A DNA stretch of 63,463 nt, taken from the NCBI RefSeq assembly GCF_027011145.1, contig NZ_JALVAO010000042.1:1-63463 (forward strand), in the 5' to 3' direction. A program made the position numbers and the translations under genes. The number at the start of each line of letters is the position of its first letter. Position 1 is the stretch's first letter. Positions 55,198-62,807 of this stretch are shown piece after piece. The notes under the pieces were generated by a model. It ran no database searches and had not been told where the DNA came from. It saw only the letters and a program-made list of their open reading frames with translations. The stretch is from Thermococcus sp. (GTDB lineage Archaea; Methanobacteriota_B; Thermococci; Thermococcales; Thermococcaceae).

Positions 55198-55563
55198 TTA
55201 GATGCCGAACTCCTTTTTCGTTTCATCAACTATCCTGTTTATCTCCTCTTGGGAGAGCTTTTTGGTCGCCTCCGCCAGAAGGAGCACTTCAGGTGTAATC
55301 CTCAGGAGGAGATAAGTTTTCTCAGCCCCTGATATTATGTATCTGTCTGAGGCCTCGAGTCCCGAAAGTGCCCTAAAAATTTCGGGGGTCTTTGCAGACA
55401 GTTCCTCGTATTTCTCAAAGTTACCCATTATCGGCAGTCCCTCCGAAGTCGCGTAGAGGTATTTTCTAAGTCCGTACTTTTTGGAGAGAGCCTCCTCAAA
55501 ATTTTCAATCTCTTCCGTTGTTTTTGTTCTCAGGAATTTTTTTATCCTCTCCATTATACCCAT
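55198..55563 (-). CDS. Roadblock/LC7-like small protein
   Basis: A 121-residue protein with a helix-strand-helix-strands pattern of the Roadblock fold: YGLRKYLYATSEGLPIMG, a helix, DRYIISGAEKTYLLLRITPEVLLLAEA, and a C-terminal helix. It belongs to the same fold class as the product at 57010. It overlaps the upstream DNA-binding gene by 59 bases. It may start at 55563 or 55554. The Roadblock assignment is from pattern only. Confidence 0.58.
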   Translation of the reverse strand: MGIMERIKKFLRTKTTEEIENFEEALSKKYGLRKYLYATSEGLPIMGNFEKYEELSAKTPEIFRALSGLEASDRYIISGAEKTYLLLRITPEVLLLAEATKKLSQEEINRIVDETKKEFGI

Positions 55564-56326
55564 GTCTGCGTGCCTCCAATATTTTTTTGCACAGTCCTTC
55601 TATATCAGTTATGATATTTTCAGGACAGTTACCTGTTTCCCTAAAAAGTTTTTTGATCATTGTGAACTTCTCCCAGCATCTCTTTTTTATCTCATTTGGA
55701 ACCCACAGGTAGTCTATTCCAAGGTTGTTCAAATGCCTGATAAAGCGGTTTTCAAATCCGTTTGTTGGAACTAATGGTGAAACTGGAAATATCATCACAA
55801 GCTGAGGCCTTAAAACACTAAGTACAAAGGAGTCGAATATTTCGATAATGTCTTTGAGTTTTGGATTGTCCAGCACGCAACAGTATAAAACTTTACATTC
55901 GGAAATATTGCAGATTAGGAGGAGTCTCCGCCCTTTTTCAATCCTAGGGGATACTCCAATAAACACCACGGGAACGTTTCTGTTGCAGAGAACGTTGAAT
56001 TCTTCAACTATCCTCATAAACTCAGCTTCTTTGTATTCGTTTATTGTTCTCCAGATTTTGTACCTCGATATTTTGATATTTTCTTTTTTTAAATGCTCTT
56101 GTATCCTCGATATTGTGTATCCCTCTTCTCTAAGACGCAGTATTTTCTTTTTAATATCTCCTGCCAGTTCTTCTCTTTTCCGTCCTGGCTTTTTGAGGTG
56201 CGGATCCTTTATTATTTGAAGAACCCTTCTAGGGGTTATGCCGAATCTTTCGGCTATTTCCATTGTACTAACTCCATTTTCCCATAGGTGAAGTATTTCG
56301 TTAACCTGATTTTTATCAAGTTTCAT
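55505..56326 (-). CDS. Transposase-like HTH protein, possible domesticated regulator
   Basis: A 273-residue protein. Residues 1-85 carry two helix-turn-helix units (LHLWENGVSTMEIAERFGITPRRVLQII and LREEGYTISRIQEHLKKENIKISRYKIWRTI), the pattern of IS630/IS-type transposases. Residues 95-235 resemble an RNase H-like integrase core, but the DDE acids are not visible. There are no inverted repeats or target duplication around it. The start at 56326 is inferred from TATA at about 56350-56358 on a leaderless mRNA. It is divergent from the Roadblock operon and shares an inverted repeat with it. It is AT-rich relative to its surroundings. Confidence 0.62.
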   Translation of the reverse strand: MKLDKNQVNEILHLWENGVSTMEIAERFGITPRRVLQIIKDPHLKKPGRKREELAGDIKKKILRLREEGYTISRIQEHLKKENIKISRYKIWRTINEYKEAEFMRIVEEFNVLCNRNVPVVFIGVSPRIEKGRRLLLICNISECKVLYCCVLDNPKLKDIIEIFDSFVLSVLRPQLVMIFPVSPLVPTNGFENRFIRHLNNLGIDYLWVPNEIKKRCWEKFTMIKKLFRETGNCPENIITDIEGLCKKILEARRHGYNGEDKKIPENKNNGRD

Positions 56327-56381
56327 AACAATACATAGGGCAATAAACAATTTAATATTTTTTGGATAATATGTCCAGTAA

Positions 56382-56406
56382 CCGAAATAATTATCGAATA
56401 TTTCGG
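56382..56406. promoter_or_regulatory. Inverted repeat between the divergent HTH and Roadblock genes
   Basis: CCGAAATA (56382-56389) and TATTTCGG (56399-56406) form a perfect 8+8 dyad with a 9-base spacer. It sits directly upstream of the forward TATA (GTTTATAAT, 56413-56421; BRE-like GGAAAAAA) and about 30 bases upstream of the reverse-strand TATA. It is a candidate operator for the adjacent HTH protein. Confidence 0.55.
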
Positions 56407-56521
56407 AAAAAAGTTTATAATGCCAACATGAATATAATTAGAATGGCCTTGGCAGTTCCCCACCCGATGAGGAAAACTGCAAAGATTTAGAATATGCTCA
56501 ACGAGGGGGGGTGCATCTTCG

Positions 56522-57004
56522 ATGACGGAGGCGAAGGTCGTGGAGAGAATGAACGAGAGGTCTGAGGAAATGGCAACAAAGGTTAACAATCTTATATTGT
56601 ATGGCATTTACAAGGTTCTTGGTGCCGGTGCGAGGGGACTAGGTAATTCCATTGGCGAGGAACTACTCCATGCCATGATGGATGAGTATGGATTGAACTT
56701 TGAGGGTAGCAACGACCCGCAGGAACTGCTCAACCGTTTCACAGAGGTCATGATAAACACCCTTGGCTTTGCCGAGAAGGGTGAAATAGACGTTGATGGG
56801 AATAAGGTAACACTAAAGCTTGATAACCCAATGGATCTTTACGCCCTTCAGTTGCTTGAGAAGAAGGGGATGAAGCCAGTTCTCTATCCCATGGCAAATG
56901 CAGTTGCGGTAGCTATCAAGAAGTTTTCCGGTAAAAACGTCTTGATCAAGGAAATACGCGTTCATGAGAAACATGTTGAGGTTGACATGCTAATTCTGGG
57001 GTGA
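56522..57004 (+). CDS. Protein of unknown function in the Roadblock operon (V4R/Bet3-like pattern)
   Basis: A 160-residue soluble protein: N-terminal helices (LILYGIYKVLGAGARGLGNSIGEELLHAMMDEYG), a short sheet (EIDVDGNKVTLKLDNP), a Pro-Met-Ala-Asn-Ala helix and a final sheet. The arrangement recalls V4R/Bet3-like domains, but I cannot confirm the family. The next gene starts within a few bases of its stop. The ATG follows GAGGGGGGG. Confidence 0.6.
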   Translation: MTEAKVVERMNERSEEMATKVNNLILYGIYKVLGAGARGLGNSIGEELLHAMMDEYGLNFEGSNDPQELLNRFTEVMINTLGFAEKGEIDVDGNKVTLKLDNPMDLYALQLLEKKGMKPVLYPMANAVAVAIKKFSGKNVLIKEIRVHEKHVEVDMLILG

Positions 57005-57009
57005 TGAAG

Positions 57010-57363
57010 ATGTTTGAGAACGTTATAGCCGACCTTCTCAGAGTTGATGGTGTTAAGGGTGTTGCTGTTGTTAGCAAAGACGGCCTTCTCATCGAAGGGC
57101 AGGCGAGCGATAGAACGATTGACGTTGAAAACGTTGCAGCGATGGTCGCTACCATATACGGTACTGCATTAAACGTTTCCAAAGAGGTGTTCCATGAAGA
57201 GGCAGTTGACATGGTTACCCTCGAGTCACCAAAGGGCAAGATAATAACCGTTGAGGCGGGTGAAAACGCCGTTCTTACTGTCCTTACAGACCCAAAGGTC
57301 AACCTGGGTCTCGTGAGAATTTACCTCAAGAGGAATGCTCAAAAGATCGCTTCAATGCTCTGA
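57010..57363 (+). CDS. Roadblock/LC7-domain protein
   Basis: A 117-residue Roadblock protein. IADLLRVDGVKGVAVVSKDGLLIEGQ (about 5-30) is the diagnostic first part, followed by AAMVATIYGTALNVSKEV and a sheet containing KIITVEAGENAVLTVLTD. Roadblock proteins commonly act as dimeric GAP partners of small GTPases such as MglA, or as scaffolds. No GTPase gene is adjacent here. The start at 57010 follows GGGGTGATG. Confidence 0.88.
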   Translation: MFENVIADLLRVDGVKGVAVVSKDGLLIEGQASDRTIDVENVAAMVATIYGTALNVSKEVFHEEAVDMVTLESPKGKIITVEAGENAVLTVLTDPKVNLGLVRIYLKRNAQKIASML

Positions 57364-57395
57364 GATTCTTTTCTATTATTTTTGAGGTGGTTTAA

Positions 57396-58055
57396 ATGCT
57401 TCCGGGAAAGTTTGTTGGCGTTATTACGAACTTTGACGATCCGTTGGAGCTAACTGGAAAGACTAGGGAAGGTTATCTTAAACTAGCATGGAGGAGTGAT
57501 TCCAGTATAAAAGTTGGGTACATTATAATGAAAAAGGGCAAAATATTGGGGGCTATTGTCGAAGATGTTCTTAATAATACCTCAATTCAAGGCGACATTG
57601 CATTCGTTGAGATAGTTGAGGCGATAAAACAGGGTCTTGTGAAGTCTGTCGAGATATATGAAGCAAACGTTGAGGAAATCCTAAATGAAAATCCCAAGGC
57701 ATACATCACCGAAGTCTCCACTATCCCAAGCTCTGGAAACGACTTGGAAAGTTTCTTATCCCTCCTTAAGATGTATAAGGGAAGCATAGAGATACAAGAT
57801 GGCTCAAAAGCGTGGATTCTTTACGTGGAACATGGAATAGTAAAGGCCGCTAGAGGCATCAGGGGATCAAACCTCCGGGGTGATAGCGCAATTAGGGAAA
57901 TATTCCGTGAGATGGGCCATCTTCTGAAGGAGGGCAAATATACAACTAGCGATAGGGTTCAATTTTCTTCCTCAGACACCGTTAAAAAGGGAGAAATTTT
58001 TATCGAAGGTTTAGAACTCCTGAAGGAAAAAAGACGGCTGGAGAAAGGCTTTTAA
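57396..58055 (+). CDS. DUF2226-like protein following the Roadblock gene
   Basis: A 219-residue soluble protein. The N-terminal half opens FVGVITNFDDPLELTGKTREGYLKLAW and resembles the DUF2226/DUF4388 module; a second, similar unit begins at KMYKGSIEIQDGSKAWILYVEHGIVKAARG. The two halves look like an internal duplication. It is AT-rich and probably co-transcribed with the two preceding genes. Function unknown. Confidence 0.62.
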   Translation: MLPGKFVGVITNFDDPLELTGKTREGYLKLAWRSDSSIKVGYIIMKKGKILGAIVEDVLNNTSIQGDIAFVEIVEAIKQGLVKSVEIYEANVEEILNENPKAYITEVSTIPSSGNDLESFLSLLKMYKGSIEIQDGSKAWILYVEHGIVKAARGIRGSNLRGDSAIREIFREMGHLLKEGKYTTSDRVQFSSSDTVKKGEIFIEGLELLKEKRRLEKGF

Positions 58056-58801: not shown

Positions 58802-59314
58802 GTGAAGGCGCCAATCTGTGAGGTTTGTCTCAAGACCGACGACATTCTTTGCCCCGCTGATGAAAAGAAACTTCAAGAGGGTATAATCTCCGAGCTGGAC
58901 GTTAAGGTCGCACGCTTACTCTACAAGCTTCTTGGAGATGTGGACATCGAGTTTAAGAAGGCCGTCGAGGCTGGAGATCTTATCGTCATAGTCGTTGGCG
59001 AGGGAGACGTACCCATAACCATAGGCAAGGGCGGAAAGAACATAAAGACCCTCATTAGGGAGCTTGGTAAGCGCGTCAGGGTCATCGAGGGCATGAAGGC
59101 TGAGAGCACCGATGAACTCAAGAAGCTCGCCTCCGACCTGCTTTATCCCGCCGGCGTTTTCGGCGTTAACGTCGTTTACAGGCCCGGTGGCGAGACCTAC
59201 TATAAAGTCCTCGTCTTCGGCAGGGACAGGAAGAAGCTCCCGGAGAAGCCGGAAATCCTTGAGAGCGTTCTCAGCCAGATAGTTGGCAAGGAAGTCAAGA
59301 TTTCCTTCGTTTGA
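58802..59314 (+). CDS. KH-domain RNA-binding protein with an N-terminal zinc motif
   Basis: A 170-residue protein. An N-terminal CEVC...C cluster (CEVCLKTDDILC) precedes a helical segment and a NusA-type KH domain with the GKGGKNI loop at about residues 77-83. A small C-terminal domain follows (VVYRPGGETYYKVLVFGRD). It is related to archaeal NusA-like proteins encoded near tRNA synthetase genes. It starts with GTG after GGAGGTGAG. Confidence 0.85.
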   Translation: MKAPICEVCLKTDDILCPADEKKLQEGIISELDVKVARLLYKLLGDVDIEFKKAVEAGDLIVIVVGEGDVPITIGKGGKNIKTLIRELGKRVRVIEGMKAESTDELKKLASDLLYPAGVFGVNVVYRPGGETYYKVLVFGRDRKKLPEKPEILESVLSQIVGKEVKISFV

Positions 59315-60691: not shown

Positions 60692-60761
60692 GGCCTTTAT
60701 ACCTTCTCCCCTTTCATTGTGTAGGCAGTTGTGTACATATTGGTGTGTGGAGGTATGCATA

Positions 60762-62807
60762 ATGAGAAAACCTGTGGCTTTAATCCTGATAGTGCTCCTG
60801 TCTTTGTCAATGCTTCATATCCATCGAGTAAGTGCTTCGGAAATTAAATACGCCAGTGTTACTGGTATCAGCCTGCCCTTGGGAGGAAGTGTTCAGCTTG
60901 GTCCATACACCATCAAGTTCACGGATGCCAGCATTACTTGGGACAGCGTATATCTTACTGTAGAGGGACCGGACGGTCAGATAAGCGCAGTCCTCAAAGT
61001 GGGCGGTTCTTTGGCTTATCCCTCCGGCGACCCCACTAAGATGCTCCTCAACGTTTCCGTGCTGTGGATAAGGAGTGACACGAAATCCGTGCTCCTAACA
61101 ATAAGCTCCCCTCTAACAAAGCTTTATTCGGATAAGGCGATACCGGTTGGAACCGAGTTCTCACTCCCATCGGGATTTCCTCCGATAAAGATAAAACTGG
61201 TTTCCGCCTCTGACACAGATGCAACCTTTACAGTTACAATGCCGTATGGCGCTACCTACACACTGGAAATCCCGAAGGGTGAGTCGAGGTCTGTATCCTA
61301 CAAGCTTGATGAGATTCACACCTACGTTAACTACCTGTCTATTGAAGTTCTCAACACTACCAAGAACAGCGGTGCTGTAATTAACCTATACGTTCCCAGG
61401 GTTGCATCCACGACCCTCAAGATAACAACGCCCGGAGAAACGAATCCCGAAAACCCAGTTACTCCCGTTGTTAAAACGACACTCCTCTACGACGACATCA
61501 TTTACGTTGGCGAGAGGCTTCCTGTTAAGTACAACGGCACAACCTACTACTTCAAGCTCCTCTCGGTGATTCCTGACCTGGCGAGGGTTGAGGTTTACAC
61601 CGCAAACGAAACCTATGCAAACTTTACCCTCGAGGCCGGCGACGTCCCCAAGGCCGTTCCCGGAACACCTTTCCTCGTGGCAATCTCAAAGACCCAGCCC
61701 GACTACAAGAGGGCCGTCCTCAAAGTTTACGGCCCCATTGAGGCCCAGGTAATTCCGATACTCCGCTCGGCTAAAGTAGTTGCCAACATAACCGCTGTGC
61801 CGAAGAAAGTCCTCCTTGGTCAGGACATAGTGCTCTCGATAGGCGTTGAGAACCTCGGTAGGGGAGATGCCTACCAGCTGAACGTCGCGGCGCCGATTCC
61901 AAACGGCTTCCAGCTGGTGAGCATGACGAAGAGCTGGCAGATAAAGAACCTTCCCGCCTTCACAAAACTTCCAATGCTCGTCTACGTCCTCAGGCCGACG
62001 AAGGTTGGAAAGTTCGACATCGGTAAGGTTCTCGTGACTTACTACGACGACCAGAGCCTCGAAACCGGAAAGATGAAGACCATTTACTCGGCTCCACTCA
62101 CCGACATCGAGGTTTACGCTGTGCCAAAGCTCTCCCTTAACGCCCTTGCTTACAACGGTACATGGAACAACTACGTTACCGCTAAGGTAAACGATACCGT
62201 AACAATTGCCCTGACCCTTCAGGCTTCAAAGGGCAACCCCGCCTACGAGTTCATAAAGAACGCCACACTCATACTGAGTTATCCGAAGTCCCTGAAAGGA
62301 CAGAGCGTCATAAACCTGGGCACAATAAAGGCAGGGGAAACAAAGACTGTCAAAGTTCCACTACAGGTTACGGGTGAAAACCTGTCCCTCGTGAAGGCCA
62401 CGCTCAGATACCTTGACCCTCTCGGCAACCAGCACGAGCTGAGCTTTGGCACGGTTGCAACAATCAACAGCGTGCCTCCTGAGGTAGTCGTGAAGACCGT
62501 CAAGGTCTGGCCGAACCCGGAGGAGCTCCCGGCTTATATCAACCAGACCCTCTCGAAGGTGAACAACGCCACTCCCTTGGCGGAGCAGATACTTGACGTG
62601 GTTTCACCCTACGTCCCCAAGAAAAGCAACCCCTGGAAACCCCTGGCGATAATTTTCCTCATAGCGACCATCGTCCTCGCTGGATTCAGCTACAACTACT
62701 GGCGCGAACTTGAGGCCCTCAAAGAAAAAGTCCTCAGGAAGAAGCAGAGACGCCCTGGAGGACTGCCCAAGAAGGAGGAAGAGGAAAGCGAGATTGAGCT
62801 TCTTTAG
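60762..62807 (+). CDS. Secreted, membrane-anchored surface protein (COG1361-like)
   Basis: A 681-residue protein with a signal peptide (about 1-25), a long beta-rich extracellular region with many N-x-S/T sites, and one C-terminal membrane helix (about 627-650) followed by a charged tail ([22 protein letters not shown]). CARDB/DUF11-like segments ([33 protein letters not shown]) indicate repeated immunoglobulin-like folds typical of archaeal S-layer-associated proteins. GGAGGT lies ahead of the ATG at 60762; the frame is open further upstream into the aspS end. Function unknown. Confidence 0.82.

Follow-up and report, generated by a model that had tools for sequence, protein, structure and literature searches.

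The five genes at positions 55,198–58,055 of Thermococcus sp. contig NZ_JALVAO010000042.1 (the window analyzed here comprises 63,463 nucleotides) are a gain/loss island at one fixed Thermococcus site, with parts that have recombined, a property missed by the earlier sequence-only reading of this DNA. That reading holds in part: its description of a bidirectional module with its own DNA-binding protein and no GTPase is borne out and strengthened by conserved synteny, by a promoter element that is unique in the genome and by a search of 18 genomes in which no Ras-like GTPase exceeded the Roc cut-off. We propose, and consider the case evenly balanced, that the block is a self-regulated module for sensing a ligand, independent of any GTPase and under the control of a domesticated transposase. 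The dead transposase (P0001) would bind a single candidate element and control the operon encoding the V4R-like, Roadblock and DUF2226 proteins, with P0002 as its partner subunit. The V4R-like protein would presumably bind a small hydrophobic ligand, the DUF2226 protein could serve as a variable adaptor or output, and no GTPase would be needed. P0002 may also pair with the Roadblock protein, P0004, by which the state of the V4R-Roadblock complex would be fed back to the regulator. A further proposal, which we put forward only tentatively, is that the dead IS481 transposase and its Roadblock-like companion are a swappable cassette sensing the state of a GTPase-independent V4R-Roadblock complex, that the hypervariable parts are specificity determinants for self-recognition or conflict exchanged between species at one locus, and that the whole represents an undescribed archaeal module.

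Distribution of the block and exchange of its parts

The five open reading frames have the coordinates and strands originally given for them, and their description as a compact unit holds well beyond the window. Examination of neighborhood conservation in Thermococcales found the block to be syntenic, with gene order and orientation kept, in 13 of the 94 Thermococcaceae genomes searched. The five genes stay together, and their chromosomal site is one and the same in every carrier genome; in genomes lacking the block its two neighbor genes are adjacent (20 of 20 examined). In a pair of genomes whose flanks are 93% identical, one has a 2.75-kb block where the other has 23 bp, with no evident terminal repeats or target duplication at the junctions. 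The block was also correctly noted to be more AT-rich than its flanks (GC content of 41.7% versus 51.6%), a contrast that recurs in all 12 loci measured.

The genes of the block evolve at two speeds. The V4R-like and Roadblock core is conserved to the same degree as AspRS (91–94% mean identity) and is under strong purifying selection (dN/dS about 0.02–0.06), while the HTH protein, P0002 and the DUF2226 protein are hypervariable (34–48% identity). The DUF2226 proteins of loci L070 and L072 are only 33% identical though the dS of their flanks is 0.15–0.54, and between L064 and L070 the HTH protein and P0002 are 30 and 46% identical, respectively, though flank dS is 0.13–0.79. Conversely, the HTH protein and P0002 of L073 and L074 are nearly identical (dS of 0.16–0.17) where measurable flank dS exceeds 1.5. 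The clade defined by the flanks is rejected for the HTH protein and P0002 (p = 6e-13), and genomes with and without the block are interspersed on the flank tree (8 changes versus 8.5 with shuffled labels). As judged from these sequence comparisons, the HTH protein, P0002 and the DUF2226 protein are exchanged between species. With genes evolving at two speeds and cassettes being swapped at a single locus, allele swaps offer a direct test of function.

It is feasible, if rather unlikely, that the block serves in conflict or self/non-self discrimination, as a module of the defence, addiction or kin-recognition type in which V4R and Roadblock proteins form a scaffold and the HTH-P0002 pair and DUF2226 protein are specificity parts in an arms race. 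The scattered distribution, the allele swaps between the three pairs of loci above, the rejected flank clade and the low GC content are all consistent with this. However, the block was not found to encode any effector domain such as a nuclease or toxin, a PADLOC search produced a single spurious match (E = 0.04) and nothing else, viral, plasmid and phage relatives were looked for and none found, and the block is surrounded by ordinary housekeeping genes and not by a defence island.

The transposase-derived protein P0001 and its putative partner P0002

Profile alignments and structure prediction show P0001 (273 residues, 55,505–56,326, reverse strand) to descend from an IS481-type transposase and to have lost the catalytic residues. 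It has the part order of IS481 and other DDE enzymes, two N-terminal HTH domains followed by an RNase H-like integrase core, and aligns end to end (hhalign probability 98.3%, E = 1.1e-14) with an intact IS481-like transposase from another Thermococcaceae genome (G012, L029:844–1821, reverse strand); the C-terminal domain alone also aligns (P = 1.8e-4). The same core fold is predicted for P0001, as its AF2 model (pLDDT 82.7) has integrase topology and its best Foldseek matches are the IstA transposase (2.8e-6), Mu transposase and retroviral integrases. Unlike IS481-family transposases, however, P0001 lacks the D-D-E triad: across 13 members no conserved D, D or E was found at the expected positions (the end of beta1, after beta4 and the last core helix), and an invariant PT motif (SPLVPT in the window, PP[LM][VA]PT or similar in orthologs) stands in place of TDNG. 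P0001 is, on its sequence, a domesticated transposase predicted to be catalytically dead.

The reverse-strand gene had been called a transposase-like HTH protein, and its HTH was verified; its IS481-type ancestry and the loss of the catalytic residues had been overlooked.

Ancestry from IS481 together with low GC content and a patchy distribution could also mean that the block is what remains, in degraded form, of a mobile element of IS481 or integrative type that carried passenger genes. We regard this as highly improbable. Although D-D-E is missing in all members, 14 residues are invariant and the reading frame is open in nearly all of them, and the V4R and Roadblock genes are under the strong purifying selection described above. 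Hallmarks of transposon-style insertion (terminal repeats, target duplication and varied sites) were not seen: the site is the same in all genomes carrying the block and replacement is clean, a further difference from IS481 elements. Regulators domesticated from transposases are well documented in eukaryotes; to our knowledge, they are little described in archaea. In this instance a relative retains an enzyme resembling the ancestor, and the candidate target is one defined site.

The gene for P0002 (121 residues, 55,198–55,563, reverse strand) overlaps that of the HTH protein. In one species the two are fused into one open reading frame (G066, L067:2449–3699), and their distances are correlated (r = 0.76). 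The two proteins behave as a single cassette. P0002 was initially described as Roadblock-like. Its top PDB match is a Robl structure (7f8f) at a weak E-value of 0.022, with no match in Pfam, and it is possible that P0002 has a divergent Roadblock-like fold. Homology between P0002 and P0004 was considered and received no support, in that hhalign profile comparison of P0002 with P0004 and with a second Robl family gave no match.

The promoter element of the V4R operon

A conserved element of ~15 bp, CGAAATAATTATCGA (56,383–56,397, forward strand), lies immediately upstream of BRE/TATA in the promoter of the V4R operon. Its start and the TATA-like box of this operon, GTTTATAA (56,413–56,420, forward strand), are separated by ~30 bp. 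The sites were initially chosen by eye, and a leave-one-out scan recovers the same ones: each of the 12 loci whose HTH protein is intact has the element, its score being reached in none of 300 shuffles for 10 loci and in 2 and 5 of 300 for the other two. The same scan does not detect the element in loci L064 and L068, where the HTH protein is missing or truncated, without its first HTH; natural loss of the HTH protein is accompanied by loss of the element. In its exact form the element occurs once in this genome, and it is probably the binding site of P0001.

The perfect inverted repeat reported between the divergent promoters does exist (56,382–56,406, 8-bp arms and a 9-bp spacer), but is perfect in no ortholog, and 6% of dinucleotide shuffles yield one as good, which is near chance. 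We therefore ruled it out as a conserved operator. The conserved element is asymmetric and overlaps the left half of the repeat.

Archaeal activators typically have binding sites upstream of BRE/TATA (PMC6737238) and, because the element is in this position, P0001 is probably an activator that, by analogy with these proteins, would recruit the basal machinery. The position relative to BRE/TATA resembles that of TFB-RF1 and the TK0271 protein (PMC6737238), whereas the candidate regulator here is derived from a transposase and has a single exact genomic target. A somewhat unlikely, but serious, alternative is that P0001 represses the divergent promoters or does no more than autoregulate there. 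The divergent gene arrangement is compatible with repression, as is the presence of the element 47–151 bp upstream of the HTH gene, and the operon persists in two genomes that have dispensed with both the HTH protein and the element. Conversely, the element is just upstream of the V4R operon's BRE/TATA and covers neither this nor the start site, and its spacing is constant solely to the V4R promoter, with the distance to TATA maintained across orthologs. Whether activator or repressor, the regulator is not indispensable, because the two genomes without a functional HTH protein retain P0002 and the V4R operon.

The V4R-Roadblock-DUF2226 operon and the GTPase question

The identity of P0004 (117–119 residues, 57,010–57,363, forward strand) as a Roadblock/LC7 protein is confirmed by its match to PF03259 (4.5e-17; 62 bits against a curated cut-off of 23) and to solved Roadblock and MglB structures. 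A longer frame begins at 57,004, and the methionine at 57,010 is the start conserved in orthologs. P0004 is clearly homologous to MglB and to other Roadblock proteins of archaea and bacteria. The gene for an MglA-type GTPase usually lies beside that for MglB (PMC4316618); in contrast to MglB and other Roadblock/LC7 proteins (archaeal Robl_LC7, CvnB), no such partner was found for P0004. None is among the block's neighbors, as originally noted, and a search of 18 Thermococcaceae genomes with the single GTPase profile PF08477 yielded no Ras-type GTPase scoring above the Roc cut-off. Matches to PF08477 below the cut-off were all weak and in large frames (427–673 residues), and judged by length are probably translational or other multidomain GTPases.

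P0003 (160 residues, 56,522–57,004, forward strand) is 89–96% identical to its orthologs and has no relatives outside the genus in 115 genomes of the phylum. Its earlier description as V4R/Bet3-like receives no support from sequence matching, as there is no Pfam match to V4R or TRAPP and no PDB profile match to either, and its low-confidence model (pLDDT 54.5) gives weak fold matches that include V4R and Bet3/TRAPP (Bet3-Trs31 and the TRAPP core) as well as H-NOX and YslB. The predicted secondary structure fits V4R/Bet3 (TRAPPC3), with a helix-rich N-terminal part and two beta hairpins around two helices. Helices 2 and 5 carry the V4R/Bet3 signature, two Gly-x3-Gly pairs (Podar et al., 2008, PMC2253512); the first is invariant in P0003 (G41-x3-G45), but the second is replaced by alanine (A125-x3-A129), and P0003 differs from the family also in having no cysteine zinc site. 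Collectively, the fold matches and layout only suggest a V4R fold.

V4R and Roadblock proteins encoded together could form a TRAPP- or Ragulator-like complex, acting as GEF, GAP or tether for a GTPase encoded elsewhere. The clear homology of P0004 and the weak matches of P0003 to Bet3-Trs31 and the TRAPP core are in its favor; against it are the absence of a GTPase both beside the Roadblock gene and, over the cut-off, in the 18 genomes searched, the lack of a longin protein in the block and the alanines at the second Bet3 glycine pair. We consider such a complex very improbable, and the parallel to TRAPP drawn in the first reading, with a V4R fold that is only suggested and P0002 only a possible Roadblock protein, is not supported. 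A Roadblock-V4R pair with no detectable Ras-like GTPase bears on the roles of these folds before eukaryotic TRAPP and Ragulator.

The last gene encodes P0005 (219 residues, 57,396–58,055, forward strand), the hypervariable protein of the operon. A literature search found no paper on DUF2226, and the only one on DUF4388 concerns a Chloroflexi nitrite reductase. The proposed DUF2226-like assignment stands, while profile evidence for the internal duplication is weak (P = 7e-4, probability 26%). All 14 orthologs match DUF2226 (PF09987) and 12 of the 14 match DUF4388 (PF14332); P0005 is a short, stand-alone protein of ~220 residues, whereas other frames with these domains in the same genomes are ~550–640 or 270 residues long.

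Distribution of the block and its insertion site

All five open reading frames proposed in the sequence-only reading were found where stated. P0002 (55198-55563) and the HTH protein P0001 (start methionine at 56326) are encoded in overlapping frames of the minus strand; P0003 (56522-57004), the Roadblock protein P0004 (start at 57010, conserved) and the DUF2226-like P0005 (57396-58055) are encoded on the plus strand. The block is indeed AT-rich, with a GC content of 41.7% versus 51.6% in 10 kb of flanks, and GC was below that of the flanks in 12/12 orthologous blocks measured. P0003 is present at 89-96% identity in 13 of the 94 Thermococcaceae genomes searched, all of a single genus, Thermococcus, and P0001, P0002, and P0005 have essentially the same distribution. 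The five genes had been read as one unit, and their order and orientation are kept in all 13 genomes as far as the contigs extend, with the same neighbors within contig reach, a glutamate-cyclase-like gene and an HD-domain hydrolase gene; the exceptions are G019 (locus L068), in which the HTH gene is absent, and G044 (locus L064), in which the first HTH is absent. Pieces of the block lie at contig ends in three more genomes (G053, G054, and G063). Each part of the block belongs to a known superfamily, and we found no description of the combination. No relatives of the core (P0003 and P0004) were found beyond Thermococcus in the collections searched. Outside the genus, the only sign of the block is a contig-end fragment in genome G088 (L077:3079-3270) that shares 40% identity with P0002 over the latter's C-terminal half.

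The neighbor genes are adjacent, ~10-70 bp apart, in all 20 block-less genomes examined. When locus L064 (with block) was compared to L084 (without), the flanks were 93% identical, 23 bp stood in place of 2.75 kb, and neither terminal repeats nor a target duplication was evident. The block is scattered on a tree of two flanking proteins (8 changes, versus a mean of 8.5 under shuffled labels). This shows that the block has often been gained and/or lost but does not fix how many times, as the tree has two genes and the block-less genomes were picked by neighbor-gene similarity.

P0001 and the promoter element

The suggestion that P0001 is transposase-like was borne out, although its Pfam matches were to HTH domains only. 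In an AF2 model built from 13 sequences (pLDDT 82.7), the two HTH regions are followed by beta1-beta2-beta3-alpha-beta4-alpha-beta5-alpha, the order of the DDE integrase core, and Foldseek matched the model to IstA (2.8e-6), Mu transposase, and retroviral integrases; whole-chain TM-scores were low (about 0.2-0.36), as expected from flexible domain orientation. The related genome G012 encodes an intact IS481-type transposase with D-D-E (L029:844-1821, minus strand; motifs QMDWK, TDNG, and GKVERF), apparently near the ancestor of P0001, with which the P0001 profile aligned end to end, over residues 1 to 209 (hhalign 98.3%, E=1.1e-14). The C-terminal domain alone also aligned in register, and its P=1.8e-4 is the fairer value to use because the transposase was picked up via its HTH similarity. 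No conserved acidic residue was found at the three catalytic positions in the P0001 family, and TDNG has given way to a loop in which a PT motif is invariant (PP[LM][VA]PT or similar in orthologs, SPLVPT in the window). P0001, with its predicted transposase fold and profile alignment, is thus a domesticated transposase that lacks the catalytic triad.

A perfect inverted repeat had been noted between the divergent promoters. It exists in the window, but is near chance (6% of shuffles) and imperfect or absent in orthologous loci, which rules it out as a conserved element. An asymmetric element, CGAAAT(AA/CT)TnTYCRA, was present in 12/12 loci whose HTH protein is intact. It invariably points the same way as the V4R operon (P0003-P0004-P0005) and keeps a constant distance of about 30 bp from the operon's TATA-like box, whereas its spacing from each of the two start codons differs greatly among loci. 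A leave-one-out weight matrix recovered every site, and the site score was attained by 0/300 shuffles in ten loci and by 2 and 5 of 300 in the remaining two. The element was undetectable at L064, where the HTH protein is truncated, and at L068, where it is absent; the best match was within the shuffle range at the former and inside coding sequence on the other strand at the latter. The exact element occurs once in the window's genome, inside the block, and had no match outside the locus in 17 genomes, although some loci have more divergent sites that fall outside the exact pattern. Its position matches that of known archaeal activators, upstream of BRE/TATA (PMC6737238). Because the element and the intact HTH protein co-occur, the element is a candidate target of P0001. 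The two natural losses, of the first HTH at L064:7523-8215 (G044) and of the whole HTH gene at L068:8681-9996 (G019), both retain P0002 and the operon.

Roadblock and V4R-like products

P0004 is a Roadblock protein, as claimed (62 bits to PF03259; MglB and Robl structure matches). For P0002 the top PDB match was Robl (E=0.022), but neither Pfam nor profile comparisons confirmed the assignment; it may be a divergent Roadblock protein. A possible parallel to this pair is encoded elsewhere in the window's genome (L129:4241-5064, contig C67, minus strand), where a second Roadblock protein lies beside a 121-residue protein that resembles a divergent Roadblock partner; no GTPase is adjacent there either.

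P0003 had been read as V4R/Bet3-like. It had no match at the sequence level. A low-confidence model gave weak fold matches, ranked behind designed proteins, to V4R (PoxR), Bet3-Trs31, the TRAPP core, H-NOX, and YslB, which share a fold or have related ones. Two Gly-x3-Gly pairs mark Bet3/V4R (PMC2253512); in P0003 the first is invariant, whereas the second is replaced by Ala-x3-Ala, and we provisionally regard the protein as V4R-like. P0005 matched DUF2226/DUF4388, and its proposed tandem internal duplication is plausible but weakly supported.

As had been remarked, no small GTPase is encoded among the neighbors of the block, in contrast to prokaryotic MglA GTPases, the genes of which usually lie beside those of MglB (PMC4316618). 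As a search of 18 genomes with Roc, the single GTPase profile used, also gave nothing above cut-off, the module is likely GTPase-independent.

Divergence and a working model

Among block-bearing genomes, P0004 and P0003 average 94% and 91.5% amino acid identity, respectively, similar to AspRS (91%), whereas P0002, P0005, and P0001 average 48%, 45%, and 34%. The core is under purifying selection, with synonymous sites largely saturated. The other three genes have diverged partly through allele exchange: P0005 is 33% identical between L070 and L072 despite flank dS of 0.15-0.54, and P0001 and P0002 are 30% and 46% identical between L064 and L070 despite flank dS of 0.13-0.79, while between L073 and L074 these two genes have dS of 0.16-0.17 versus measurable flank dS >1.5, with one flank gene saturated. 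The flank grouping of the window, L064, L070, and L072 was rejected for P0001 and P0002 together (p=6e-13) but not for the core (p=0.12). In nine genomes P0001 and P0002 distances correlated with one another at r=0.76, and neither correlated above 0.47 with those of another gene. In G066 both are fused in a single 416-residue ORF (L067:2449-3699). The pair is thus most likely a single functional cassette.

Such hypervariability and allele exchange would suit a function in conflict or self-recognition, the main rival to the regulatory role that we propose. In the regulatory model, P0001 with P0002 would bind the single element and drive the P0003-P0004-P0005 operon. There are V4R domains that bind hydrophobic molecules (PMC2253512), and by analogy the conserved V4R-Roadblock pair would form a sensing core. 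P0002-P0004 pairing would let the regulator respond to the state of this core, and P0005 would be the variable output. The identity of the regulator and the element are supported by sequence evidence; we infer the binding, activation, ligand, and feedback.

A further hypervariable gene near the block (60753-62804) encodes a large BatD/DUF11-like surface protein that is 32 to 96% identical between otherwise similar loci. The NusA-like KH protein at 58802-59314 has two allele classes (about 92-100% and 77-86% identity) discordant with the neighbor genes, which suggests that recombination here reaches past the block.
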